Positions 12,264 to 48,128 of a DNA stretch of 48,128 nt are shown here, one piece after another. How positions within the stretch are numbered: the stretch's first letter is position 1; every line of letters begins with the position of its first letter. Source of the stretch: an uncultured Chitinophagales bacterium (GTDB lineage Bacteria > Bacteroidota > Bacteroidia > Chitinophagales > JAHDHT01); contig CALHDG010000210.1 in assembly GCA_938023075.1 (NCBI GenBank), forward strand, positions 1 through 48,128, in the 5' to 3' direction. The position numbers and the translations under genes are program-made. The notes under the pieces were generated by a model. That model saw only the letters and a list, made by a program, of their open reading frames with translations. It was not told the origin of the DNA and made no database searches.

Positions 12264-12298
12264 TATGTGTCCAATGTATCAGTATTCGTCTAAATGTA

Positions 12299-12306
12299 TA
12301 CCTTTG
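12299..12306 (+). promoter_or_regulatory. Probable -7 box (TACCTTTG) of the SPOR-domain gene
   Basis: TACCTTTG fits TAnnTTTG. Initiation about 6-7 bases downstream would begin just before the ATG at 12318 and after the alternative ATG at 12294. This supports the later start. Confidence 0.5.
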
Positions 12307-12317
12307 CAGATAAGAAT

Positions 12318-12728
12318 ATGAAAGCAATTACAAGTATTTTGTGCACCTTAATAATCGTATTAATCGCTTTGCCAAAAGCACAGGCGCAAACTTTTAATGA
12401 AGTGGGTTCTTTAAATATTATCGCAACCTACGATATTGAAAAGTTGGTGCGTAAGCACATTTATATGAACGAAAATAACCGCCAAACAAGGGGTTATCGA
12501 ATACAAGTGATTCAAAGTAGTGAGCGCGATAAAATTTATGAAAAAAAGGCTAAATTTTTAAATAAGTTTCCTGATGTAAAAACCTACGAGTCGTATAATA
12601 TGCCTTATTATATTTTACATGCCGGCGATTTTGAAAACCGCTTAGAAGCCTATTCTTTTTATACGCAGGTATTGCGTATTTTTAGCAGTGCAAGATTGGT
12701 GCCTGACATAGTTAATATACAATTGTAA
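12318..12728 (+). CDS. Exported SPOR-domain protein
   Basis: 136 residues from ATG 12318. This start gives a clean signal peptide (MKAITSILCTLIIVLIALPK, then AQAQ) and lies downstream of a -7 box; the longer frame from 12294 adds eight residues before the signal. The C-terminal half (YRIQVIQSSERDKIYEKKAK, then MPYYILHAGDFENRLEAYSF) is a SPOR/Sporulation-related repeat fold, which binds peptidoglycan lacking stem peptides, typically at division sites. The whole protein is little more than one SPOR domain, so it is likely periplasmic. The M20 gene starts 9 bases after its stop, suggesting an operon. Confidence 0.75.
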   Translation: MKAITSILCTLIIVLIALPKAQAQTFNEVGSLNIIATYDIEKLVRKHIYMNENNRQTRGYRIQVIQSSERDKIYEKKAKFLNKFPDVKTYESYNMPYYILHAGDFENRLEAYSFYTQVLRIFSSARLVPDIVNIQL

Positions 12729-14733: not shown

Positions 14734-17700
14734 ATGAACAAAATAATTACACTAGTTCAATTTACTTTTTTATTCACTCTAATTCTTTCAATTAAAACTA
14801 CAATCGCTCAAAATTGCACCAGCATCAATTTTAACGATTTTACAATTTTGTCTTCAAATGGCAATCAAGATAATGGAGTTTTCCAAATACAAAATAATGG
14901 CGCTACGTTATACATTGCTAACAATGCATGGAAAGCTATTGAAGTTAACTACCCAGTATTAAGCAATACAATTCTCGAGTTTGAATTTAAAAGTACTGTT
15001 AAAGGAGAAATCCACGGGATTGGACTGAATAATTTGTTAACAAGTATTATACCTTCAAATGTTTTAAATATTTATGGAACGCAAAATATTTCAACTGATA
15101 ATATTGCTAGTGATGATTATAACTTAAACGGAAATTGGCAATCTTTTAGAGTTGATTTAGGAACTTATGTTTCAGGTACTTTCAATTATCTGGTATTTAT
15201 TGCCGATGATGATGCCAATGCCAATGGCAACTCTTTTTTCAGAAATGTAAAAATATACGAACCAACTACCTACGCTCAGGTAAATTCCAATTTAGTAATT
15301 AACGAAATACAAGCTTCTAATAATAACACCATTTTAGATAATTTTTTAGAGTATGATGATTGGATAGAAATTTACAATACGTCAAACAATCCAATTGATT
15401 TAGCGGGGTACTATTTATCAGATGACGTCTTCCAACTCAATAAGTTTCAAATCCCCAATTCTGATGCTCTACTTACAACTATTCCTGCAAACGGACATCT
15501 ATTGTTTTGGGCAGATAATGACGTTGCACAAGGAATTAATCATAGTAATTTTAAATTGAGTTCTTCTGGTGAACGTGTTTTTTTAGTGGCTCAAGATGGA
15601 ACGACCATTATTGACTCCATTATGTATACCCCCTTAAAATCTGGTCAAACTTATAAAAGAATACCAGATGGAACCGTTAATTTAGCCAAAAGCGCTATGG
15701 CATCTCCAGCAAATACAAATGATGATGATTTTGGATTTCTTGAGCCGCCCGTATTTAGTCTTTCATCCGGAACTTACAATGGCAATCAAACCATTTCACT
15801 ATTCAATGCTGGCGGTGCAACAATTTATTATACAACTGATGGCTCTGCGCCTAATACTAATAGCCCTATATACAATACACCAATCACCATTACACAAAAC
15901 ACTTCCATTAGGGCAATAGCTGCTAAATGTGGTTTTGAAAACAGTGATATTATAACACAAGCATATATAATTGGAGTTAATCACGACTTGCCAATATTAA
16001 CCTTAAATATAAATGATGAATATTTGTATAGTGACACTCAAGGGATGTTGGTAGTAGGTACCAATGGTATAGAAGGTTGTGGCGGTGTTGCTAATTATCA
16101 TCAAGAGTGGGAATATCCGGGCAATGTAACTTTGTTAAATACGGCAGGTAACGAAGCCTTTAATGTAGAAGGTGGGCTATCCGTTTTTGGCAATTGTAGC
16201 AGACGGTATGCGCAGAAGAGTTTGGCTTTAAAAACTAAAGATATTTATCAAAGTAAAAACATACCGTACAAAGTATTTCCAACGCAAACGCAAGATGAAT
16301 TTAGAAGACTGAGGTTTAGAAATGGAGGAAATCATTGGAAAAATTCTATGATAGCAGATTTGATTTTTCATCAATTAATTGAGAAAACCACCAATGCTGA
16401 TGTGCAAAGTACAACTCCGGTAGTTAGCTATATAAATGGTGATTATAATGGCATTTTTAATATTCGACACGCTTATAGCAAGCACTACTTTAGATACAAT
16501 CATAAAAAATATGAAAATAGCGATTTTGATATTCTTAGAATGGCAAAAAGTTATAAAGAGTATTCTGTGGTAGATGGAGATTCAACCGATTTTAAAAATT
16601 TATTTGAAAGCTTTGAAAATACTAATTTGTTTACACCACAAAAAATAGATTTAATTTATAACACAATAGACATCGATAATTTTATTGATTATTATTCGAG
16701 TATGATGTGGGTGTGGACTTTAGATTGGCCAGCCACCTATTCACCGTCAAATCAAATTTTTTGGAAACCGAAAGAGCAAAACACAAAATGGCGGATAGCT
16801 GTTTTAGATGTAGATGGTGGATTTAGCAACGTAAGCCACAACACTTATTCTTATATGAATATACCGGATAGCTTAGGTAGAAACACCGAAGAAGCCACAA
16901 GACTATTCCGTAGATTAAATCAAGACATCCCAAAATTTAATGAAGAGTTTGTTCAAAGAGCATTTACTTATTGTAATATAATTTTTAATAAAGATTCGGT
17001 AGCAAAAAAAATTAACAATTATAAAAGCTTAATTGAAAATGAAATGCATCAGCACATTAATAAATGGGGAAATCAGGGAGGAGTTCCATCTTATAATGTT
17101 TGGTTAGATGAGGTTGAAATATTAAAAACTTATGCAAACGGCAGAAGTGATACCCTCAAAAATCATATTGCCAACTATCATAACAAATCCATTATTAATT
17201 TAGCCTTTAACTTTAATCAAAATACCAATGGGTACGTTGCTCTTAACAGCAACTTTTTTAAAGTTCCAGAAAACTATGTCGGAGAATATTTGGAAGACAT
17301 ACCTATGTGGCTTCATGCAATACCCAACCCTGGCTATCGATTTGTGGAATGGCAAGGTATGGATAATACTGCTTATAAATATCAGCAAAGCGTTTATAGG
17401 GCATTTAACACCAATAAAAACATCACCCCAATTTTTGAGCCTGCTTTAGATGTTGTAATTAATGAAATACACTATAATCCTTTAGGCACCAGCGAGGCTG
17501 AAGAATTTATAGAATTATACAATCCTGACAATAAAGCTAAACCACTTTTTGGTTATCAATTTAACAATGGAGTTGAGTTTTCTTTCCCCGAAAACGTGGT
17601 AATTAATCCTAACGAATATATAATAATTGCGAATGATGCATCCATATATGAAAACAACGGTTACCAGGTTTTTCAATGGACATGTGGCAATCTGAACAAC

Positions 17701-19251
17701 GATGGAGAAATGATACAATTTAGTAACGCAGCCAATGTAGTAATTGATTCTGTTAGATATAATGATAATATTGATTGGAATCAAGATGCCGATGGCTTAG
17801 GTTATTCCTTAGCTTTAATTGACCATTCTGATGACAATGCCCAACCTGCTGCCTGGACAAGTCAAGCTATTGAAAAAATAACCCCTGGCGCCAAAAACCA
17901 GTTTTGCATTCCCATAAGCATAAATACTTTTTCTGCCGATGTAAGTTGTTACCAGGCAAATGATGGTTTTATTGCTACTCAAATTAGCGGTGGAACATCG
18001 CCTTATAATTATAGTTGGAGCAATGGAGATACCGGTAATACCATTAGCAATCTATCCGTAGGCCAATATACCCTTACCGTTACTGATTTTTTTAATTGTG
18101 CGCATGCCGAAACCTACAACATTAACCAACCAACACCACTTCAAGCAATAACTAATTCAAGCAACCAAACTTATTACAACACAAATAACGGCACCGCTTC
18201 TGTAAATGTAATTGGAGGCATTGCACCTTATAGTTACAATTGGTCAAACGGAGCTAATACCGCCTCAATTACCGGTTTAGCACCATTGAGCTACACCGTA
18301 AATATAACAGATGCTAATAATTGTTCTATTACTGAAACGATTCATGTTCAAGCAATTGATTGTAGTACGTTAACTGCTTCAATTACTAAAACCGACCAAA
18401 CTTATTATCAAACTAATAATGGTAGCGCCACAGCGAATGTAGTTGGTGGTTTTGCACCTTATAGTTACAATTGGTCAAACGGAGCTTCTGTACCTTCTAT
18501 AAATAATTTACCAGCCGGAAGTTACAATATTAATGTTGTTGATGCGATAGGATGCATAGCTCAAGACTCGGTTATAGTTAATGGGATAACATGCAATACT
18601 TTGCAAGTTGATGTAAGTGTAAGCCACGAAAGTTGTTTTGGCGAAGAAGACGGCTTATTACAAATTAACAATATTCAAAATGGAATGACACCCTATTCTG
18701 TTTTATGGTCAACTGCAGTTGAAGATACAGTAATCAATAATTTAACTGCCGGTGATTATCAACTAAATATTACCGACAACTTGGGTTGCCCTTTTGAAGA
18801 TAGCTATACCATTAATGCAGCTACGGAAATTTCTGTTAATACTATTGTTACTGATGCCAGTTCAAATAGTGTTCAAGATGGTTCAATTGAATTAATAGTT
18901 AATGGAGGGATGCCACCGTATACTTTTAATTGGTTAACTTTAGCATCCAGTCAAAATATTGGCAACTTATTACCAGGCAATTATTCGGTGAGTATATCAG
19001 ATGCAAACAATTGCCAGGTACAAATAAATAATATAGTTGTTGGTAACAATTGTTTGTCAAGTATTGTTCAACAAAATTATCCACCAATAACAACGGCGGT
19101 ATTTCAAGTTGCCGATTTTATCCAATCAAATGGAATAGTGCTCAACAATGAACAAGTGAGTTTTAAAGCTGGCAGCTACATTGAATTAACTGATAGTTTT
19201 GAAGTAAAACAAGATGCCGCATTCGAAGCCAAAATAGATGGATGTGATTAA
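14734..19251 (+). CDS. Large secreted protein with lamin-tail, CotH kinase-like and five SprB-type domains
   Basis: 1505 residues with a signal peptide ending TIAQ (about 1-25). In order: a lamin-tail domain (about 185-330, LVINEIQASNNNT), a chitobiase C-terminal-like domain (about 338-410, ATIYYTTDGSAPNTNSPIYN), and a CotH kinase-like domain (about 417-800). CotH features are GLSVFGNCSRRYAQKSLALK, RRLRFRNGGNHWKNSMIADL and the metal-binding-like LDVDGGFSN near 692. A second lamin-tail domain follows (about 905-1065, VVINEIHYNPLGTSEAEEF), then five SprB-type repeats (about 1069-1425, pattern GG..PY.Y.WSNG). The end is an apparent coathanger-stack domain (VSFKAGSYIELTDSFEVKQD). It is a cell-surface or secreted protein; kinase activity is not established for this subgroup. 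Two SprB repeats share an exact 35-base segment (18221-18255 and 18452-18486). Confidence 0.85.
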   Translation: MNKIITLVQFTFLFTLILSIKTTIAQNCTSINFNDFTILSSNGNQDNGVFQIQNNGATLYIANNAWKAIEVNYPVLSNTILEFEFKSTVKGEIHGIGLNNLLTSIIPSNVLNIYGTQNISTDNIASDDYNLNGNWQSFRVDLGTYVSGTFNYLVFIADDDANANGNSFFRNVKIYEPTTYAQVNSNLVINEIQASNNNTILDNFLEYDDWIEIYNTSNNPIDLAGYYLSDDVFQLNKFQIPNSDALLTTIPANGHLLFWADNDVAQGINHSNFKLSSSGERVFLVAQDGTTIIDSIMYTPLKSGQTYKRIPDGTVNLAKSAMASPANTNDDDFGFLEPPVFSLSSGTYNGNQTISLFNAGGATIYYTTDGSAPNTNSPIYNTPITITQNTSIRAIAAKCGFENSDIITQAYIIGVNHDLPILTLNINDEYLYSDTQGMLVVGTNGIEGCGGVANYHQEWEYPGNVTLLNTAGNEAFNVEGGLSVFGNCSRRYAQKSLALKTKDIYQSKNIPYKVFPTQTQDEFRRLRFRNGGNHWKNSMIADLIFHQLIEKTTNADVQSTTPVVSYINGDYNGIFNIRHAYSKHYFRYNHKKYENSDFDILRMAKSYKEYSVVDGDSTDFKNLFESFENTNLFTPQKIDLIYNTIDIDNFIDYYSSMMWVWTLDWPATYSPSNQIFWKPKEQNTKWRIAVLDVDGGFSNVSHNTYSYMNIPDSLGRNTEEATRLFRRLNQDIPKFNEEFVQRAFTYCNIIFNKDSVAKKINNYKSLIENEMHQHINKWGNQGGVPSYNVWLDEVEILKTYANGRSDTLKNHIANYHNKSIINLAFNFNQNTNGYVALNSNFFKVPENYVGEYLEDIPMWLHAIPNPGYRFVEWQGMDNTAYKYQQSVYRAFNTNKNITPIFEPALDVVINEIHYNPLGTSEAEEFIELYNPDNKAKPLFGYQFNNGVEFSFPENVVINPNEYIIIANDASIYENNGYQVFQWTCGNLNNDGEMIQFSNAANVVIDSVRYNDNIDWNQDADGLGYSLALIDHSDDNAQPAAWTSQAIEKITPGAKNQFCIPISINTFSADVSCYQANDGFIATQISGGTSPYNYSWSNGDTGNTISNLSVGQYTLTVTDFFNCAHAETYNINQPTPLQAITNSSNQTYYNTNNGTASVNVIGGIAPYSYNWSNGANTASITGLAPLSYTVNITDANNCSITETIHVQAIDCSTLTASITKTDQTYYQTNNGSATANVVGGFAPYSYNWSNGASVPSINNLPAGSYNINVVDAIGCIAQDSVIVNGITCNTLQVDVSVSHESCFGEEDGLLQINNIQNGMTPYSVLWSTAVEDTVINNLTAGDYQLNITDNLGCPFEDSYTINAATEISVNTIVTDASSNSVQDGSIELIVNGGMPPYTFNWLTLASSQNIGNLLPGNYSVSISDANNCQVQINNIVVGNNCLSSIVQQNYPPITTAVFQVADFIQSNGIVLNNEQVSFKAGSYIELTDSFEVKQDAAFEAKIDGCD

Positions 19252-36677: not shown

Positions 36678-37709
36678 TTGAAAAGAAATAATTTAATCTA
36701 TTTAAGCCTCAATTGGATATTAGTGGTTGCCCTGCTGTCAGGTTGCGCCCGTATTGACGACCAATATTTTCAATATCCATTAAACAGTTATTCTTCGCCC
36801 GATTATAATTTGGAAAGCAATTGGGCAGCTTTACCAGCAAAGGCAGATTTTGCGGATGCTACTCCATCGTACCAATTTGAGGACAATCAGGCAAGTGCTA
36901 GGGTAGACGTATTCTTTATCCACCCCACTACCTTTAGAAGCAAAAAAGAGTGGAACGCCAGTATGAATAAAGGCTTTTTAAATTGGACAACCGATAGAAC
37001 GACCATTAAGCATCAAGCGAGTGTTTTTAATGGGAGTTGCCGAATATATGCACCCCGTTACCGGCAAGCCACTATACAAGCCTATTTTAGCAAAACCGAC
37101 CGCGCTAACAAAGCTTTTGAATTGGCTTATAACGATGTAAAAGCCGCATTTTTAAAATATCTGGAAGTATATAATAATGGGCGACCGTTTATTTTAGCCG
37201 GTCATAGTCAAGGCAGTTCGCACCTCATTAGTTTGTTAATGGAGTTTGAAGAAACCGATGTGATAAAAAATCAAATGGTTACCGCTTACATAGCCGGCAT
37301 GCCCGTTTTTGAAGACTATTTTAAACACCTAACACCTTGCAAAAATGCCAGCGAAACCGGTTGCTACAACGCTTGGAGTACCTATTTAAACGGCTATTTT
37401 CCAGCAGATTATTATAAAGGTGCGGTTAGCACCAACCCTTTAAATTGGAAGATAGATAGCGACTATGCCTCCTACGATGAAAACAAAGGCGGCATTGTAT
37501 TTCGATACAAACGAAAGCCTAAACCGAATTTGGTAGATGCCAAAAATGTAGATGGCGTAGTGTGGGTAAAAAAACCCAACTATTGGATGAGTAAACTCAT
37601 CAAAATCAAAAATTTTCACATTGCCGATTATAATTTGTTTTGGGTGAATATTCGGGAAAATGTGGCTGAGCGGATTGCGGCTTTTGAGGAGGAGAAGGCG
37701 CAACAATGA
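36678..37709 (+). CDS. DUF3089-family alpha/beta-hydrolase lipoprotein
   Basis: 343 residues from TTG 36678; no ATG precedes the signal sequence, and TTG places Lys-Arg directly before the hydrophobic stretch. The lipobox LLSGC marks a lipoprotein. VDVFFIHPTTF (about 76-86) and CRIYAPRYRQAT are DUF3089 blocks. The nucleophile elbow GHSQGS has Ser177. DUF3089 proteins are predicted esterases or lipases of unknown substrate. The C-terminal KNFHIADYNLFWVNIRENVA carries a probable catalytic His. The gene follows two dispersed repeats. Confidence 0.85.
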   Translation: MKRNNLIYLSLNWILVVALLSGCARIDDQYFQYPLNSYSSPDYNLESNWAALPAKADFADATPSYQFEDNQASARVDVFFIHPTTFRSKKEWNASMNKGFLNWTTDRTTIKHQASVFNGSCRIYAPRYRQATIQAYFSKTDRANKAFELAYNDVKAAFLKYLEVYNNGRPFILAGHSQGSSHLISLLMEFEETDVIKNQMVTAYIAGMPVFEDYFKHLTPCKNASETGCYNAWSTYLNGYFPADYYKGAVSTNPLNWKIDSDYASYDENKGGIVFRYKRKPKPNLVDAKNVDGVVWVKKPNYWMSKLIKIKNFHIADYNLFWVNIRENVAERIAAFEEEKAQQ

Positions 37710-37771
37710 TTTTCTTAAACTGATTTAATAAAACGTATATTTACAGGCTATTAGAAAAGTGCAAATATATT

Positions 37772-40700
37772 GTGAAAAAATATTTTATTTATTGTTGTCT
37801 TTTTTGGTCTATTGCCAACATACATTGCAATACTGAAAGCACTGAAAGTGAAACAAATTTAGAAATCAATCGAAAGAAAGTAAATTCACAAAAAGAAAAA
37901 AATGATTTATTCATAAAGAAACTTCCTTCCCATACTAATATTACGTTCAATAATACAATTAATGATAATATTTCATCTCGCTACAATGCACTCACTTTTC
38001 AATATATTTTTAATGGGGGTGGAGTAGGAGTCGCTGACATAAATAACGATGGCTTGCAAGACCTTTATTTGACTGGCAATATGGTTCCAGATGAACTATA
38101 TCTTAACAAAGGTAATTTCAAATTTGAAAATGTTTCAAAAACAGCAGGTATACAAACAAAAGGTTGGTCCAATGGTGTTTCTTTTGTTGATATTAATAAT
38201 GATGGTTGGTTGGATATTTATGTTTGTAAAGGTGGTCCTGAGTTAGATGCAGTCATTAAGCAAAATAAACTATTCATTAACCAAAAAAACAACACTTTTA
38301 AAGAAGCAGCAAAGCAATATGGTTTAGCAGATGATAGAATTTCAACTCAATCTGCATTTTTCGACTATGATAAAGATGGCGATCTTGATTGCTTTGTAAT
38401 GAACAATGCAGTATATAATTCTGGCAGAGTAAATGAAAATCAAGAACGTTTAAAAAAAGACAAAACCTTTTTAATAGAGAATACATCAAACTTTTATCAA
38501 AACATCAATGGGAGTTTTATTAATATAACTCAAAAAACAGGACTGGAATCTTTTAGCTATGGTTTAGGTTTATTGATTCAAGATTTTAATGAAGACAATT
38601 GGCCAGATATCTACGTTGCAAACGATTACTATATTCCAGACAGGATGTACATTAACAATCGTAACGGTACTTTTACAGATCAAATAAAACAGCGGACCAG
38701 GCAAACTTCATTTTATGGAATGGGTGCAGATGCAGCTGACATCAACAACGACGGAAAGATTGATATTGCAGTGTTAGATATGTCATCAAATGATCACGTA
38801 TTAAATAAAACACTAATGCCCACTATGAATGTGAATATGTTTTTCACGCTAGTAGCTCATTATGGCTTTCAGCATCAATATATGTTTAATAGCCTTCAGC
38901 TAAACTTGGGTAATGGATTGTATAGTAATATAGCTCAAATGGCAGGTATTGCAAATACGGAATGGAGTTGGTCCGTTCTTGCGGCTGATTTTGATTTAAA
39001 TGGATGGCAAGATCTGCACATAACAAATGGTTTAAAAAGGTATATAAGCGACAATGATTTTAGGCGGCGCATTGAAGCTTTAAATGTAAAAGCCAATGCG
39101 GGGCAAACTATTTCAAGTGAAGAAAAAAGAAATTTGTATGCGAGCATCCCTACGCATAAAATAGCAAACATCTTATACAAAAATAAAACCGACTTAACAT
39201 TTGAGTCTGTAGAATGGGGCATAAATGAGAAGTTAAATAGCAACGGTGCTGCATATGCTGATTTAGATAACGATGGTGACCTAGATTTGATTACCAACAA
39301 CATAGATGCACTGGCTTCCATTTTTGAAAATAGGGCATCTGAAAAAAACAATTTTATTACAATTGATGTAGGTTATCAAAATGTTAATACCCTTGTAAAA
39401 GTTTACATGGCAGGTAAAGTTCAAACTAAAGAATATCATCCGGTACGGGGTTACCAATCAAGTCAAGACCATCGTTTAAATTTCGGTTTGGCTAAGGAAA
39501 AAAAAGCAGATTCAATAATTGTTAAATGGAGTAACGAAACTTATACCAAATTGACCAACATAAAGTCAAACCAAATGTTAAAAATACAAAAAGAAAAAAC
39601 GTACAAAATAAATCCAAAGCCTAAGCAAGCACTTTTTACAGCAGTTGATGCTGCAAAAGCAGGTATTTCTTTCAGACATCAGGAAAACAAATACAATGAT
39701 TACAAAAAGGAAGTATTACTTCCCTATCTGCAATCAACATTGGGCCCTAAAATTTCAAAAGCCGATATTAATAACGATGGCTTAGATGATTTTTACATTG
39801 GTGGTGCTGCCGGGCAAAACGGAGAACTATACATCCAACAACAAAATACAAAATTTAAAAATGTACCAGGTCCCTGGCAAAATGATGCAGAATGTGAAGA
39901 TATGGGAAGCCTGTTTTTTGATGCTGATTCTGATGGAGATTTGGATTTATACGTTTGCAGCGGAGGTAATGCTTTCAACCTTAATCATCCTCTTTTAGAA
40001 GATCGCCTGTACATTAACAATGGAAATTATCGTTTTACTAAATCGAATGAACTACCAAACATTAAAAAAGTAAGCACCATTGTAACTACTACCGATATTG
40101 ACAATGATGGAGACCTAGATCTTTTTGTAGGAGCACGCCACCAACCCCAAAAGTACCCACTTGCTGAAACCTCCTATTTTTTAATAAATCAAAATGGAAA
40201 ATTTACTTACAACAAAGAAATTACAAATGATGTTAGAGATATTGGTTTGGTAAACGATGCTACTTGGGCAGATATAGATAACGATAATGATGAAGACTTA
40301 ATTATTGCAACCGAATGGGGTCCAATACATATTTTCGAAAACGAAAATGGAAAGCTGACTAATCAAAATACCAAGTGGAATACCTCAACTTACAAAGGCT
40401 GGTGGCAAAGCATTTTAATTGAAGATATTGACAATGATAACGACCTAGATATTATAGCTGGTAACCTCGGCTTGAATAGTAAATATAAAGCTTCACCAGA
40501 AAAACCACTTAAAGTTTATACTGGCGATTTTGATAATAACGGAACACACGACCTGTTTTTAAGCAAAAAATATAAAGATGAATATGTGCCCGTGCGAGGC
40601 TTTCAGTGCTCGTCTGAACAAATGCCCGGCTTACAACAAAAATTTAGTAGTTACCAAAGCTATGCTAATGCGGATATTCAGCAAATTTTGGGTAATGCAG

Positions 40701-41092
40701 AAAGTAAAACAGAATTCGAAAGTACTACATTTCAATCCGGTATTTTTGTTAATAATCGTAGCGGTTTCACCTTTAATCCATTACCGAACATGGCGCAAAT
40801 TTGCCCAATATTGGCAATGCAAAGTATTGATGTAGATAATAATGGATTAAAAGATATAATTATAACAGGTAATATATATAATACTGAACCTGAGACCCCA
40901 AGTTTAGATGCGCTATCAACTCAACTACTTATCAATAAAGGAAAATGCCGCTTTAAGCAATTGGATAAGCCTGTAAGCGGATTAGATGTCTTTGCAGATA
41001 TAAAAGATATGCAAATACTACAATCTAAAAATTCAAATATATTAATATATGGTGCAAATAATAATAATATATTTGTTTATAGTAAACAATGA
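37772..41092 (+). CDS. FG-GAP/VCBS-repeat protein with an ASPIC/UnbV domain
   Basis: 1106 residues from GTG 37772, with a signal sequence ending near IANIHC; the cysteine may be lipidated, but the lipobox is imperfect. At least ten calcium-binding FG-GAP motifs are seen, for example DINNDGLQDLYLTG, DINNDGWLDIYVCKG, DYDKDGDLDCFVMN and DIDNDGDLDLFVGAR. An ASPIC/UnbV-type segment at about 530-610 includes YHPVRGYQSSQDHRLNFGLA. Such proteins form beta-propellers outside the cell, often near polysaccharide-use genes in Bacteroidota, though no SusCD pair is in this window. The precise ligand is unknown. The frame is intact. Confidence 0.85.
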   Translation: MKKYFIYCCLFWSIANIHCNTESTESETNLEINRKKVNSQKEKNDLFIKKLPSHTNITFNNTINDNISSRYNALTFQYIFNGGGVGVADINNDGLQDLYLTGNMVPDELYLNKGNFKFENVSKTAGIQTKGWSNGVSFVDINNDGWLDIYVCKGGPELDAVIKQNKLFINQKNNTFKEAAKQYGLADDRISTQSAFFDYDKDGDLDCFVMNNAVYNSGRVNENQERLKKDKTFLIENTSNFYQNINGSFINITQKTGLESFSYGLGLLIQDFNEDNWPDIYVANDYYIPDRMYINNRNGTFTDQIKQRTRQTSFYGMGADAADINNDGKIDIAVLDMSSNDHVLNKTLMPTMNVNMFFTLVAHYGFQHQYMFNSLQLNLGNGLYSNIAQMAGIANTEWSWSVLAADFDLNGWQDLHITNGLKRYISDNDFRRRIEALNVKANAGQTISSEEKRNLYASIPTHKIANILYKNKTDLTFESVEWGINEKLNSNGAAYADLDNDGDLDLITNNIDALASIFENRASEKNNFITIDVGYQNVNTLVKVYMAGKVQTKEYHPVRGYQSSQDHRLNFGLAKEKKADSIIVKWSNETYTKLTNIKSNQMLKIQKEKTYKINPKPKQALFTAVDAAKAGISFRHQENKYNDYKKEVLLPYLQSTLGPKISKADINNDGLDDFYIGGAAGQNGELYIQQQNTKFKNVPGPWQNDAECEDMGSLFFDADSDGDLDLYVCSGGNAFNLNHPLLEDRLYINNGNYRFTKSNELPNIKKVSTIVTTTDIDNDGDLDLFVGARHQPQKYPLAETSYFLINQNGKFTYNKEITNDVRDIGLVNDATWADIDNDNDEDLIIATEWGPIHIFENENGKLTNQNTKWNTSTYKGWWQSILIEDIDNDNDLDIIAGNLGLNSKYKASPEKPLKVYTGDFDNNGTHDLFLSKKYKDEYVPVRGFQCSSEQMPGLQQKFSSYQSYANADIQQILGNAESKTEFESTTFQSGIFVNNRSGFTFNPLPNMAQICPILAMQSIDVDNNGLKDIIITGNIYNTEPETPSLDALSTQLLINKGKCRFKQLDKPVSGLDVFADIKDMQILQSKNSNILIYGANNNNIFVYSKQ

Positions 41093-41342: not shown

Positions 41343-41374
41343 TTGCACAAGCTAAAAATGTATAGGTAAGTTTG
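41343..41374 (+). promoter_or_regulatory. Probable promoter of the small-basic / giant-acidic protein operon
   Basis: TTG at 41343-41345 and TAAGTTTG at 41367-41374 are 21 bases apart. The predicted leader to the ATG at 41477 is about 95 bases. The remaining bases of 41093-41476 show nothing further. Confidence 0.5.
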
Positions 41375-41476: not shown

Positions 41477-41917
41477 ATGAAAAAATTAATTTTTACACTG
41501 CTCATTTCATTTTTCAGCTGTACTTTGGCTTTAAATGCGCAAAATTCTGGTAATAAACCTGACAATCCTCAAAATATACTAAGCCAACAAATTGTTAAAC
41601 CAGGCACTCAATTGACGAAACAAAAAATGGTTAGAAAGTATTCTAGCAAAATTTATAAAAATGTGGGCGTTTTAAAAACCGCTCCAGTTGTAGTTGATGA
41701 TAAACTTAAATCAATCCAAAAGGTAAATATTATTAAACCCAATGAAACCAATTTGGCTGTTCACTTGACTTTCGAAGAAAGCTTGCAAGCCATGAGTTTG
41801 GAACAGCGAAATAACACACTGCAAGAGCTAACACTCCGTTTAAGTCAGGTTGAAGCCGGTTCGCCTGAACATCAAAAGTTAATAAAAATAACAACCCTTC
41901 TCAAAGGGTTGAAATAA
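41477..41917 (+). CDS. Small basic secreted protein of unknown function
   Basis: 146 residues with a signal peptide ending LNAQ (about 1-22). The mature chain is rich in Lys and Gln (TKQKMVRKYSSKIYKNVGVL), with a helical C-terminal half (FEESLQAMSLEQRNNTLQEL, then EHQKLIKITTLLKGLK). I recognise no family. It lies 40 bases before a giant, extremely acidic secreted protein and shares its probable promoter, so a partnership is likely. A hairpin overlaps its last codons. It has no sorting domain of its own. Confidence 0.65.
   Translation: MKKLIFTLLISFFSCTLALNAQNSGNKPDNPQNILSQQIVKPGTQLTKQKMVRKYSSKIYKNVGVLKTAPVVVDDKLKSIQKVNIIKPNETNLAVHLTFEESLQAMSLEQRNNTLQELTLRLSQVEAGSPEHQKLIKITTLLKGLK
41892..41911 (+). 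promoter_or_regulatory. Hairpin over the 3' end of the small basic gene, possible attenuator
   Basis: CAACCCTT (41892-41899) pairs with AAGGGTTG (41904-41911) around a CTCA loop, ending 3 bases before the stop codon. There is no good T run after it, so it is more likely an mRNA-processing or attenuation element than a full terminator. Confidence 0.45.
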
Positions 41918-41957
41918 TTAAACTTTCTTCTTGAAAAATAATTTTTAAATATTGATT

Positions 41958-44900
41958 ATGAAAAAATATATAGGGTTTTTAATTTTTTATCTACTGGTCT
42001 TTGCCAGTCCGCTCCTCGCTCAGGATTTTGCGGATTGTGGTACTGACGTCTGTGCACCAATCTGCCCTGATTGCGTCATTACAACAAGAACAGTGACCGA
42101 AACTGGTACTTTGCCTTATAGTATCGTTTATGATGCAGCCACTAATGGGCAAAACAATCAGACTTTAGCAGTAGCAATTGCTGAACCAAATGTACCTCCT
42201 TGTTCTAATGTTACATTTGACTATGAATTGAACTATACCATTGATCCATTTACTCCGGATATGGGTATTTCCTGGACAAGCGAAGCTTCTTTCACCATTA
42301 CTGATTTGGCGGGAGGGGTGATAGCCGCTGGCGGGCCAGGCTTGCCAGGCTCTGCCAATAATGGTAATCCTATTAATGGAACTGAAATGGGTAGTGCTAC
42401 CACACCCGCAGGTAGTTTTAATGGTGGTGTTATTCTTGATATTCAGGATAGTTTTGATGATGCTAATGCAGATGGTACTTTTTCTGGTGAATTAATTTAT
42501 ACATTAACTATAGAAGTGCTTGAATTTGAACCGGCACCAGCTTGTGCAGATATAGCACCTTTAGCTTGCGGTTGCCCCGCACCAGAGGTAGATTGTGCAG
42601 AAAGCTGCGCCGAAGTTGACGGAGCTGGTTGTGTATACAACTATTTCCCTAATGGTACATCTCCTGGTCCTTCTCCTGGAGGAGATCCAACATCTTGTAC
42701 AGTTACAGGTGGTGCTTCAGACTTTACTTTATGTTACGAGTTTGTACCGCAAGGTGAAGTTGCTTTTTTCTCTACCTTTATACAAGGTGGTGTTGGCGGT
42801 GTTTTGTGCGATCCTGTTTTAACAGTTTTTGATGAAAATTGTCAGGATGCTACAACAGTTGCAGGAAATAATGGTTCAACTAATGGTGTACAGATATTTC
42901 CTGGTGGTGCTGGTATTGCGCCTTCGGCTTCAAATTTAGTACCTGATAAAGAATATCATGTTTGTCTAGATTTTACAGGCTGTATGATAATAGAAGAGGT
43001 TTGTTTAACAATTGGTGAAAACTGTACTTCGGGTGAAGCAGGTTCATTGGCTATTGATAATCAGTATTTATGTGCAGGTGAAAATATGTCTGTAAATGTA
43101 AATGGTGGAGTGCTTTTTCCTATAAATGGCGCAACAGGTGAAGACGGAGATCCAACTACAGGCCAATATTTCTTTGATTTCTTTACTGGTCCTTGTGTGG
43201 GTGGTTTAGAAGCCGATCCCAATCAGCCATATTGTGGTATGTTTGGTCCAGGTGGTGCGCCGAATTTCGGAGATTTGGGATTTTTCGCTGCAGCTGGCTT
43301 GCCGCTTAGTCCAAATCCGTTTGAATTTTATTATGATGCTTCAAGCGGTCTTTTAATTGATGCTGGCACTGGTGCTCCTTTTGCAGCTGCCCCTCCATGT
43401 ACTGAAATTTGTATAGTTGGTTCTGTTTGGGATGAATTGGGTTCCACCGAGGCAGATCCAAATACTGGTCAATCAATATGTACAGACAATACCAATCAGG
43501 TGTGTTTTACCATATTGCCTCCAATTACTTATGATGATGCACACACCTATACTTGTTCCAGTTATTTTGCCAACAATGATGATGAGTGGGTTCAACTTAC
43601 TTTAGGCGCTTTTGCAGGTGGCGCAGTTGAATGTGGCATTGATGTTAATTATAATGTCTGTGGAGGCACTGGTATTTATTTTGATATAACGGGTGTTGGC
43701 TTATCTGATGTTGATTTTGATGGTAATGCAGATGCTATTGATATTGATGGTGATGGTTTTATAGATTATGTTGATTTAAACCAGGCACCAATTCTTGCAA
43801 GCAGTGGAGCTTTTGATCCTATTACTTTTGGTTATGCCGTTAAATCAAACCAGCCATGGAGTTTAACTATTTGTGATTCTCAAGGCTGTGAATTTACTAT
43901 TACAGATGAATATGATTTTCCTGAGCCAGATATTATTATGCCTTCTTTTGCTTGTTCAAATGGAGAACCTATTGATGGATTATATTTCACTGGCTTATTT
44001 AACGACCCGGCATTTATTAATGGAAATATTACGTCCGTTTTAAATGCTAATGGTATTGTTGGTGTAACAGATAATGCTGATGGAACATTTTCGTTCGATC
44101 CAGTAGCTTTTGTTGCGGCAAATGGCGGACCTGGTCAAGCTATTATTGATTATACAATAACTGATGCTGTAACTGGTTGTTCCCGCACGGTTTTACAAGC
44201 CATAAATGTTGGTGCATGTGCACCTGAATGTTCTTCTATTATAATGGACTTAAGTTTGCAGGAAGATGACGTATGTGACGGTGAAACAACCGATCTGTCA
44301 ATTTCCTTAACCAACCAAATGACAGAACTGTTCGATCTTGATGGTGATGGACAAATTGATCCGGGCTTTGAAGCTTGCTTCTTATTTGGTATTAATGCTA
44401 ATCCAAATTCATTTACTGACGATCCGTATTTAGCACCACCCGCAAATATTACGCCGGGTATTGCTGGTTTTGGACCAGCAGGCAGTACAAATGTTTTCAC
44501 TAACTTTACTTTTACGCATAGTGGTTTAACTTGTTCACCGGAAGAGTATATAGTATATGCATTTATTGATGAAGCTTGTAAAGAATCAGCGGGCGGTTTA
44601 ATACCGGATTCCTGTTTCCCATGGGTAGCAGAAGTAGTTACGGTTTATCCTGATCCAGCAAATATTAACGCTACGGTAAACTTTGTAGGCGACTGCGAAG
44701 TTGATGTAATATTAGACTTAGCTGGTGATCTTTGTTCAGATTATGAAATTTTCTTAACCGATGGTGCTGGAGGTATTATTGGTCAGGGTACTAATGCAGA
44801 TATTGATTTCTTATCAAATAATTTTGGTCAGTTAGGTGTTTTAATTAGTGCACCAGATGATGCTGATGACCCATTTAATGGGACTTGTTTAGAGGCAGAA

Positions 44901-47900
44901 ATACCATTTGCCTTACCACCAATTATGGATGGTGCTCCAGCGGCAACAACTTACGCCTGCACGGGTATTCAAGATCAAAATGGTGATGAATATGCGGTTG
45001 CTTCTATTCCTTTCTTAGGCGGAGGCTTTCCTGTTGACGGTATTAGTTTATATGAAATTTGTAGTGGTTCTGGCATTTATTTAGATCCACGTGCTAATGG
45101 AACTCCAGAACCTTTCGATTTTAACCAAAATTTCACTTCATTTTTTGACGGAGCTGCAGGTACCGTCGATGTTTTAGTGTTATGTAATCAACCATGGTCT
45201 GTAACGGTTTGTGACGGCGCAGGCTGTGAAATTACTTTTGAAGGCGTTTACAACTGCCCATTGGATCCAGAACTTGAAGGTTTAGATGAGGCTTACTGTA
45301 TTACTGATCCTGCAGATATTCTTCAAATTAATGATGAATTCTTCACCAATTCTAATCTGGCTGATGAAGTTATTTTAATAGATGAAGGTGAAACTGCTGA
45401 TGCTTTTGGACTTTCTTCTGTTCCAGCATCTGTTTCTGGTGGTTTAACTGACTTAACCGGTGGTCTTGCTGGTTTCGATCCTGGTGTTGCAGGTCCTGGT
45501 GACCACGCAGTGTGGATTTATGCGCAGGATCCTAATACGCTTTGCTTGAATGCTTCCCAAGAATTAATTACAGTATATCCAGAGTTTACTTGTGCTTTAG
45601 ATGAACAAATGGTTATTTGTAATGCATCTGGACCGATTAGTTTAGATTTAACTAATTTTACGACGGCATTTGATGCTACACTAGCTTCACCTGCTGTTGA
45701 TGACATTTTAGGTGGCACAACAGATGTAGCAACTTTCTTTGGTGCTCCAAGTGTTATCTTTTCAGGTACTGCTATTACTGATGATTATGTAAATTCAGGT
45801 TCTGTTACCTTCGATCCTACTGGCTTAAATCCAGGTGTTTACACAGTAACAGTAGATGTTGGTTACGACCAATGTAAAACCGCATGCTCAATGAATATTG
45901 TAGTAGTTGAACAGGTAAGTGGCTGTATACAAGGTGCTTCAGCTTGTGTTTGCGGTTGTGGTCAATATGATTTAACTGCCCTCTTCTGCGATGCTACTAC
46001 TACGCTTGGTGGTATATTCTGTTTAGATCCGAATGTTGCACCAAATGTTAATCCACCAAATAGTTCTATTATCGTAACTGGCGATATTTTAGAATATGAT
46101 CCGGCTACAATAACAGATGTTACAACTGTAAGTGTGAAATATTCTGTTGGTGATGCGGCTGGTGGACCAGATTGCATAGATGTTGGTACTACAACTATTA
46201 CCTTAGTACCTAAACCAATTGTTGACTTTGATTTCCCTGATGGTCCATTTTGTAGTACCAGCGATCCGGTTACTGCAGCGAATTATTTAACAGATCAAAA
46301 TGGAATGCCTTTAACCACTTTCCCTGCAGATGCCGACCTTCTCTTAGATGGCACTTCTGTTGCTATGGGTGCAGCTATTGGCACTTATATGGTTGATATT
46401 GCTTCTTTAGCAGTGGGTACACATTCAATTACTTATACTGAAGTGTATACTGACGGAGCTGAACTAAATTGCACGGATACTCAAACAGAATATTTTGAAA
46501 TTCTTCCTGGTGGTGACCCATCTTGGGAAAATCCAGGACCCCTATGTATAGATGAAGTTCCAGTTGTTTTAGGTCCCGTTGGCGGAACCTGGACTGGTCC
46601 TTTTGTAGACCCTGTTTCGGGTGAATTTAACCCAACAGTATCTGGTGTATTTACAATAACTTATTGCGTTGGTGAGGGCGTTTGTCAAGAATGCTTAACT
46701 CAGGCAATTGAAGTGTTTGATTGTGTTGACGGCACGTTAACTCCAGATGATATTGTATGTTTATCCTCTTCTAATTGTTATGATTTGGAGCAACAATATA
46801 CAGATTCTACAACACCAGGTGGTGTATGGGGAGATGTTGACGGCTCTGGTTTTCCAGATGGTGTAACTTTAAATGGAACAAATATCTGTTATAATCCTGC
46901 TGAAATTACAACTGCAACTACAGTTACGGTTGATTATTCTGTGGTGGCTTATCCAGGTGCTGCTGGTTGTTGTATTGGAATGAGTTCAACAACAATTACC
47001 CTAGTTCCTCAACCAGTAGTTGATTTAGATTTGCCAAGTGCATTCTGTACAGTGGAAACAGATATTAATTTATACGATTACGTTGTATCACCATCATCTG
47101 GCACAGGTACTTGGACGAGTGATCAAGCAGATTTTGTTATCGCAGCAGATGGAAGCGTAACTATAAATAACGATTTTACTGGTCAGGTAGAGGTTTGTTA
47201 TACGGAAACTGAAAGTGGTACTTCTGCTAGTGGCGAAGCATTAGATTGTATAGGTACTGATTGTGAAGTGGTCACAGTTGGTAATATAAGTGCCGACATC
47301 CAACCTTGCGATATAACTTGCCTTTCCAGCAGCAATTGTTACGATTTAGAACAATTGTTTAACAATACGGATACTAATGTAAATGATACCGACCCAACGC
47401 CAGGTCCAACTACCTCAGGTGGTATCTGGTTCCCAACGGGTGGTGTTACATTACCTGATGGTACAACAATAGATGGAACAAATTTATGTTATGATCCGTC
47501 AGAAATCACAGCACCTACAACAATAGATATTTCTTATTCGGTAGCTGGGGCAGATTTAGGTTCAGGTGAAACGTGTATCAGAATTGAGGAAACCAGTATT
47601 ACCTTAGTTCCACAACCAGAAGTTGATCTCGATTTACCAAGCTCATTCTGTACTTTAGAAAGCGACATTAATTTATATGATTATGTGGTAGATCCATCTT
47701 TAGGTGGTGGTACTTGGACAAGCGATCAGACAGACTTTATGATCAATGCAGATGGTTCTGTTCAAATCAGCAACAACTTTACGGGCAATGTAGAAGTATG
47801 TTATACCGAAGCAGTAATGGGTACAGAATGCGGAGGTCTTACCTGCGATGATACCGATTGCGAAGTAGTAGCCATAGGCGACATCTCTGCCGACATCACG

Positions 47901-48128
47901 CCAAAAGACATTGTCTGTTTATCCAGCAGCGAATGTTATGATTTAGAACAATTATTCAACAATACAACCGATAATATAAACGATACTGATCCAGATACAC
48001 CAGGTCCTACAACAAGCGGTGGTATTTGGTTCCCAGCGGGCGGCGGCGACTTGCCGGCTGGAACTAGTATAGACGGAACAAACTTATGTTACGATCCGGG
48101 CAGCATTACTGCACCGGTAACAGTAAAT
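41958..48128 (+). CDS. Giant secreted, acidic, cysteine-rich repeat protein (5' part; runs off the right edge)
   Basis: 2057 uninterrupted codons from ATG 41958 to the window edge. Residues 1-22 are a signal peptide (FASPLLAQ). The mature protein is rich in Asp, Gly, Thr and Cys and, counted by eye, has only about 9 Lys and 4 Arg in total. Calcium-type motifs occur, such as DLDGDGQIDPG and DIDGDGFIDYVD. Repeated modules are visible: NQPWSLTICDSQGCEFTI (about 43850-43905) and NQPWSVTVCDGAGCEITF (about 45187-45243). A longer unit beginning CLSSSNCYDLEQ occurs from 46758. It is probably a surface adhesin or matrix protein exported by type IX secretion, whose sorting domain would lie beyond the edge. 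No catalytic domain is recognised. Confidence 0.8.
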   Translation, partial: MKKYIGFLIFYLLVFASPLLAQDFADCGTDVCAPICPDCVITTRTVTETGTLPYSIVYDAATNGQNNQTLAVAIAEPNVPPCSNVTFDYELNYTIDPFTPDMGISWTSEASFTITDLAGGVIAAGGPGLPGSANNGNPINGTEMGSATTPAGSFNGGVILDIQDSFDDANADGTFSGELIYTLTIEVLEFEPAPACADIAPLACGCPAPEVDCAESCAEVDGAGCVYNYFPNGTSPGPSPGGDPTSCTVTGGASDFTLCYEFVPQGEVAFFSTFIQGGVGGVLCDPVLTVFDENCQDATTVAGNNGSTNGVQIFPGGAGIAPSASNLVPDKEYHVCLDFTGCMIIEEVCLTIGENCTSGEAGSLAIDNQYLCAGENMSVNVNGGVLFPINGATGEDGDPTTGQYFFDFFTGPCVGGLEADPNQPYCGMFGPGGAPNFGDLGFFAAAGLPLSPNPFEFYYDASSGLLIDAGTGAPFAAAPPCTEICIVGSVWDELGSTEADPNTGQSICTDNTNQVCFTILPPITYDDAHTYTCSSYFANNDDEWVQLTLGAFAGGAVECGIDVNYNVCGGTGIYFDITGVGLSDVDFDGNADAIDIDGDGFIDYVDLNQAPILASSGAFDPITFGYAVKSNQPWSLTICDSQGCEFTITDEYDFPEPDIIMPSFACSNGEPIDGLYFTGLFNDPAFINGNITSVLNANGIVGVTDNADGTFSFDPVAFVAANGGPGQAIIDYTITDAVTGCSRTVLQAINVGACAPECSSIIMDLSLQEDDVCDGETTDLSISLTNQMTELFDLDGDGQIDPGFEACFLFGINANPNSFTDDPYLAPPANITPGIAGFGPAGSTNVFTNFTFTHSGLTCSPEEYIVYAFIDEACKESAGGLIPDSCFPWVAEVVTVYPDPANINATVNFVGDCEVDVILDLAGDLCSDYEIFLTDGAGGIIGQGTNADIDFLSNNFGQLGVLISAPDDADDPFNGTCLEAEIPFALPPIMDGAPAATTYACTGIQDQNGDEYAVASIPFLGGGFPVDGISLYEICSGSGIYLDPRANGTPEPFDFNQNFTSFFDGAAGTVDVLVLCNQPWSVTVCDGAGCEITFEGVYNCPLDPELEGLDEAYCITDPADILQINDEFFTNSNLADEVILIDEGETADAFGLSSVPASVSGGLTDLTGGLAGFDPGVAGPGDHAVWIYAQDPNTLCLNASQELITVYPEFTCALDEQMVICNASGPISLDLTNFTTAFDATLASPAVDDILGGTTDVATFFGAPSVIFSGTAITDDYVNSGSVTFDPTGLNPGVYTVTVDVGYDQCKTACSMNIVVVEQVSGCIQGASACVCGCGQYDLTALFCDATTTLGGIFCLDPNVAPNVNPPNSSIIVTGDILEYDPATITDVTTVSVKYSVGDAAGGPDCIDVGTTTITLVPKPIVDFDFPDGPFCSTSDPVTAANYLTDQNGMPLTTFPADADLLLDGTSVAMGAAIGTYMVDIASLAVGTHSITYTEVYTDGAELNCTDTQTEYFEILPGGDPSWENPGPLCIDEVPVVLGPVGGTWTGPFVDPVSGEFNPTVSGVFTITYCVGEGVCQECLTQAIEVFDCVDGTLTPDDIVCLSSSNCYDLEQQYTDSTTPGGVWGDVDGSGFPDGVTLNGTNICYNPAEITTATTVTVDYSVVAYPGAAGCCIGMSSTTITLVPQPVVDLDLPSAFCTVETDINLYDYVVSPSSGTGTWTSDQADFVIAADGSVTINNDFTGQVEVCYTETESGTSASGEALDCIGTDCEVVTVGNISADIQPCDITCLSSSNCYDLEQLFNNTDTNVNDTDPTPGPTTSGGIWFPTGGVTLPDGTTIDGTNLCYDPSEITAPTTIDISYSVAGADLGSGETCIRIEETSITLVPQPEVDLDLPSSFCTLESDINLYDYVVDPSLGGGTWTSDQTDFMINADGSVQISNNFTGNVEVCYTEAVMGTECGGLTCDDTDCEVVAIGDISADITPKDIVCLSSSECYDLEQLFNNTTDNINDTDPDTPGPTTSGGIWFPAGGGDLPAGTSIDGTNLCYDPGSITAPVTVN
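46758..48128 (+). repeat. Protein-level tandem repeats (187-199 residues) within the giant protein
   Basis: Units begin at CLSSS(N/E)CYDLEQ: 46758, 47319 and 47916 (the last cut by the window edge), with periods of 561 and 597 bases. Each has TSITLVPQPEVDLDLPSSFC, DINLYDYVV and GTWTSDQxDF in the same order. A more diverged unit precedes them from about 45947 (CGCGQYDLTALFC to TTTITLVPKPIVDFDF). Confidence 0.8.

Follow-up and report, generated by a model that had tools for sequence, protein, structure and literature searches.

The window, the whole stretch of DNA analyzed here (48,128 bp), is an entire contig (C210), and the two genes of interest lie at its 3' end, where a giant open reading frame (ORF) runs to the last base at 48128. 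The features of this region are as follows.

41343-41374, + strand: promoter-like site of the Bacteroidota type, TTG-N21-TAAGTTTG, a pattern match in a 384-bp intergenic stretch
41477-41917, + strand: small gene, an ORF of 146 aa
41958-48128, + strand: 5' part of the giant gene, an ORF with its ATG at 41958 and 2057 codons without a stop
42030-42515, + strand: N-terminal module of the giant (aa 25-186), also found inside a G357 protein at 55% and 48% identity
42594-44258, + strand: aa 213-767 of the giant, common to the G369:C42 giant at 59% identity over 561 columns
46734-48128, + strand: tandem units of ~190-200 aa, two complete and a third cut off, from profile matches

The small gene ends 40 bp before the giant ATG, and the two look like one transcription unit. 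A single promoter-like site stands 5' of the small gene, a type of match found in ~2.4% of mononucleotide shuffles, and no site of this pattern lies between the genes, in agreement with the shared promoter proposed in an earlier sequence-only reading. The gene order, positions, and composition given there for the pair were all confirmed by a recount of ORFs and residues. Ending 384 bp upstream of the pair, 36678-41092 encodes a DUF3089 protein and then a 1106-aa FG-GAP/ASPIC-UnbV repeat protein. At 14734-19251 the window encodes a second large surface protein, an exported chain of 1505 aa in which Lamin Tail, CotH kinase, and SprB repeat domains were recognized.

The 2057 visible residues of the giant (pI 4.05) contain 9 Lys, 4 Arg, and 5 His alongside 196 Asp, 95 Glu, and 91 Cys, so that the count of 13 Lys/Arg and 291 Asp/Glu bears out the earlier description of a Cys-rich chain with about 13 Lys/Arg and very many Asp/Glu. 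Lys and Arg together make up 0.63% of the residues, as compared to ~11% expected from base composition and ~5-15% in thirteen other proteins of the window. The calcium-type DxDGDG motifs that had also been reported are present but few, with only four in the 2057 residues (DFDGNA at 586, DIDGDG at 595, DLDGDG at 793, and DVDGSG at 1626). EF-hand matches score under the Pfam cut-off, and apart from these weak matches no known family was matched in the Pfam search. Calcium-dependent RTX adhesins are likewise giant and repetitive with some calcium-type motifs, but they use a different export route, and four motifs over such a length set the window giant apart from them.

The giant is a mosaic of uncharacterized modules. 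Because the G357 copy of the N-terminal module is internal to its protein, pairing cannot be judged from that genome. Similarity to the G369:C42 giant rises to 63% identity over aa 213-677, and the C-terminal units of ~190-200 aa are common to a paralogue in the same genome (C279) and to giants of three other genomes (G001, G115, and G137); a profile search with the repeat unit found nothing significant in the PDB. The last 141 bp of the window (47988-48128) are identical, on the same strand and within the giant gene, to the end of the paralogue's contig (G000:C279, L018). The two contig ends are an assembly break in a repeat common to two giants, and no third contig carrying the shared stretch was found, so the giant gene could not be extended past the end of C210.

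Inspection of the translation by eye identified an N-terminal Sec signal peptide, MKKYIGFLIFYLLVFASPLLAQ. A TIGR04183 type A sorting domain scores above cut-off in the G001, G115, and G137 giants (8547 aa in G115 and 3595 aa in G137), all three of the relatives whose 3' ends are complete. In the window's own genome (G000), the type B sorting domain gave 30 matches, and a profile containing a type A sorting domain gave 70. From the relatives' type A domains and the many sorting-domain proteins of its own genome, we infer that the window giant would be exported by the type IX route and then displayed at the surface or released. Very large and built as a mosaic, it is best read as a surface protein, one more member of a common kind. 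Like type IX type A giants, it pairs a signal peptide with a very long, Cys-rich, modular chain; it differs in that the window copy is truncated, with its own sorting domain not visible, and in the small exported gene directly upstream.

The near-absence of Lys and Arg had been taken as a special mark of the pair, a view that does not hold up against related giants. Most of these have 0.11-1.4% Lys plus Arg, many of them without a small upstream neighbor, and the medians for N-terminal stretches of control giants are 2.71% (type B) and 1.35% (type A). Poverty in Lys/Arg is thus general among such giants of the order rather than special to the window pair. One giant of G001 (C396, L074) is more extreme than the window giant, with 0.11% Lys/Arg over 1872 residues. 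As a clear and measurable trait of many giants in the order, this poverty calls for an explanation.

The small protein has 18 Lys and 3 Arg against 3 Asp and 7 Glu (pI 9.9), and its 21 Lys/Arg in 146 residues match the exported protein with about 20 basic residues that had been described. A single-sequence AlphaFold model predicts a signal-peptide helix, a disordered Lys-rich stretch (residues 23-87), and helices over residues 88-146, with block-mean pLDDT values of ~77-93 from residue 100 onward. The G001 small protein is modeled with the same layout and one long helix (62-107), so that in both models a signal peptide is followed by a disordered stretch and a C-terminal helix. Searches for its affiliation found neither a Pfam family (E up to 1) nor a type IX sorting domain, and they gave no PDB sequence match and no Foldseek match to the model at E 0.001 or better. 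No credible homologue was found in its own genome, in 98 relatives, or in the genome contig collection, nor, with a two-sequence profile, in 396 genomes of the order; a single match in G372 was rejected, as its sequence looks unrelated. Pairwise alignments among the small proteins of different loci are no better than shuffles. With an export signal and no sorting domain, the small protein probably remains in the periplasm.

The opposite charges of the window pair, together with the disordered Lys-rich stretch, are what the earlier reading built on in proposing that the small protein binds the giant outside the cell as an anchor or matrix cross-linker. Across loci, the mature net charge of the small proteins is uneven, at +9 (window), +1 (G001), +12 (G115), and +12 (G137), and it would take ~31 copies of the window small protein to neutralize the giant as far as it is visible. 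Taken by itself, charge thus explains the pairing poorly, and charge-driven binding is not supported as a common principle, given the G001 value and the number of copies. A protein that is predicted to end in helices and lacks a type IX sorting domain also has no visible route out of the periplasm. We consider an extracellular partnership unlikely.

The recurrence of a small gene before giants was surveyed by reading the upstream genes of 28 giants with the common repeat, 70 type B giants, and 27 type A giants, and counting same-strand genes of ≤170 aa with a hydrophobic N-terminus, a precursor pI ≥8.8, and a gap of ≤150 bp. Within the repeat set, such genes stand before the window giant and those of G001:C498 (30 bp), G115:C278 (32 bp), and G011:C157 (a lipoprotein, 81 bp). 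G137:C8 was also counted as positive, although an acidic 366-aa gene, which starts 27 bp after the small gene, stands between it and the giant. Taking the five loci nearest by repeat, four have a small exported protein with a precursor pI >9 encoded 27-40 bp upstream, as compared to one of 97 control giants, and the sequence of that sole control match (L161) looks like a membrane protein. Fisher tests gave p ~8e-6 for the nearest loci against the rest and p ~0.002 for the repeat set against controls, values that serve as a guide only, since the criterion was set after the first cases, pI was computed with the signal peptide still attached, and related genomes do not count as independent samples. 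The contrast is weaker against non-giant genes of the same loci, 2 of ~80 of which have such a neighbor with the G137 case set aside.

The search of other genomes suggested by the sequence-only reading thus recovered a small exported protein upstream of the nearest giant relatives in three further genomes. Strict pairing, on the other hand, did not survive, as the small gene is absent beside the C279 paralogue and the G369 homologue, whose giant is 59-63% identical; the expectation that homologues would have the small gene failed for these two and held for three others. Simple descent does not account for which loci have the gene, since the G001:C498 giant resembles the C279 paralogue more closely than it does the window giant. 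Overall, the association exceeds chance without being universal.

It is nonetheless quite possible that the small gene encodes an ordinary exported protein of unrelated function, a neighbor by chance, and that the neighbors in other genomes are unrelated small genes. The small proteins have no sequence similarity to one another, two homologues (C279 and G369) do without, and two non-giant genes also have such a neighbor, among them the gene beside window 12294-12728. Against this stand the excess at the nearest relatives over the 97 control giants and the similarly short distances (27-40 bp) seen in four genomes. The window 12294-12728 gene encodes a small, exported-looking basic protein (144 aa, pI 9.3) located 9 bp before a 397-aa gene, and its product matched no Pfam family.

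Cys-rich lipoproteins encoded before giants in G011:C207 and G040:C85 are a separate family and were left out of the count. These small proteins (L022 12027-12494 and 11257-11622; L023 16385-16771; mutual E 1e-7 to 1e-10) stand 247-504 bp before the giants in G011 and G040. Related giants in G011:C157 (L021 8641-8982, - strand) and G103:C102 (L054) are also preceded by similar small lipoproteins, with two in a row in G103:C102.

The small gene consistently comes first, is short, and is followed by a gap of 27-40 bp, while its sequence is not conserved. This pattern would also fit a role in expression, in which a short first gene tunes the translation or timing of a long second gene and its product is secondary. 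Although the sequence has diverged, the signal peptide and helical C-terminus have been retained, which suggests that the exported product matters, and a role confined to expression seems quite improbable.

Over a surface partner or a chance neighbor, we tentatively favor a dedicated export or folding helper of the giant, at somewhat less than even confidence. The 40-bp gap and single promoter-like site, the small exported gene in four of the five nearest loci as compared to one of 97 controls, and the helical C-terminus modeled for the window and G001 small proteins all point this way. So does the type A sorting domain of the three 3'-complete relatives, given that type A substrates cross the periplasm after Sec and before sorting-domain recognition (PMC10202324). 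In the proposed mechanism, the giant would be exported by Sec and then by the type IX secretion system, while the small protein, translated just ahead of it from a shared transcript, would use its own signal peptide to reach the periplasm and, lacking a sorting domain, stay there. It may then aid the giant toward the outer-membrane channel, with the helical C-terminus as its structured part and the flexible Lys-rich stretch contacting the acidic, Cys-rich chain, and this contact could prevent the giant from aggregating or folding too early. Several observations speak against such a helper: the small proteins are not alignable, the C279 paralogue and G369 homologue do without one, a mature net charge of +1 to +12 is far too low for 1:1 neutralization, no likeness to a known chaperone was found by Pfam or Foldseek, and the first cases were already known when the census criterion was chosen.

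Two known systems invite comparison with such a helper. Skp/OmpH periplasmic chaperones are small, basic, exported, and helical, and the small protein resembles them in these respects, although it has no match to that family (Pfam, E up to 1) and no significant structural match (Foldseek). SprB belongs to type B and depends on a PorP/SprF-family carrier. SprB of Flavobacterium johnsoniae is a giant adhesin exported by type IX secretion and encoded with accessory genes (PMC10202324). The likeness to the window pair lies in a giant of this kind with accessory genes, but the relatives of the window giant carry a type A sorting domain, and SprF is an outer-membrane barrel whereas the small partner is a short exported protein predicted to be helical. 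The SprB repeat (PF13573) is not among the Pfam matches of the giant's visible 2057 residues, and no PorP/SprF carrier gene lies directly upstream of the giant, the downstream side being past the contig end.

More broadly, a subset of type IX type A giants may have, immediately upstream, a gene for an exported helper that is dedicated to them and evolves fast, much as type B substrates have their carriers, although we regard this generalization as rather doubtful. A literature search returned no described system of such a form among the matches listed, and the recurrent small upstream gene would be new should the association persist in a census that is larger and specified in advance. To our knowledge, it is unsettled by what means proteins thousands of residues long and containing tens of Cys traverse the periplasm ahead of type IX export. 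If true, a dedicated helper would offer a testable answer to the periplasmic transit of giants, in parallel to the carriers of type B proteins.
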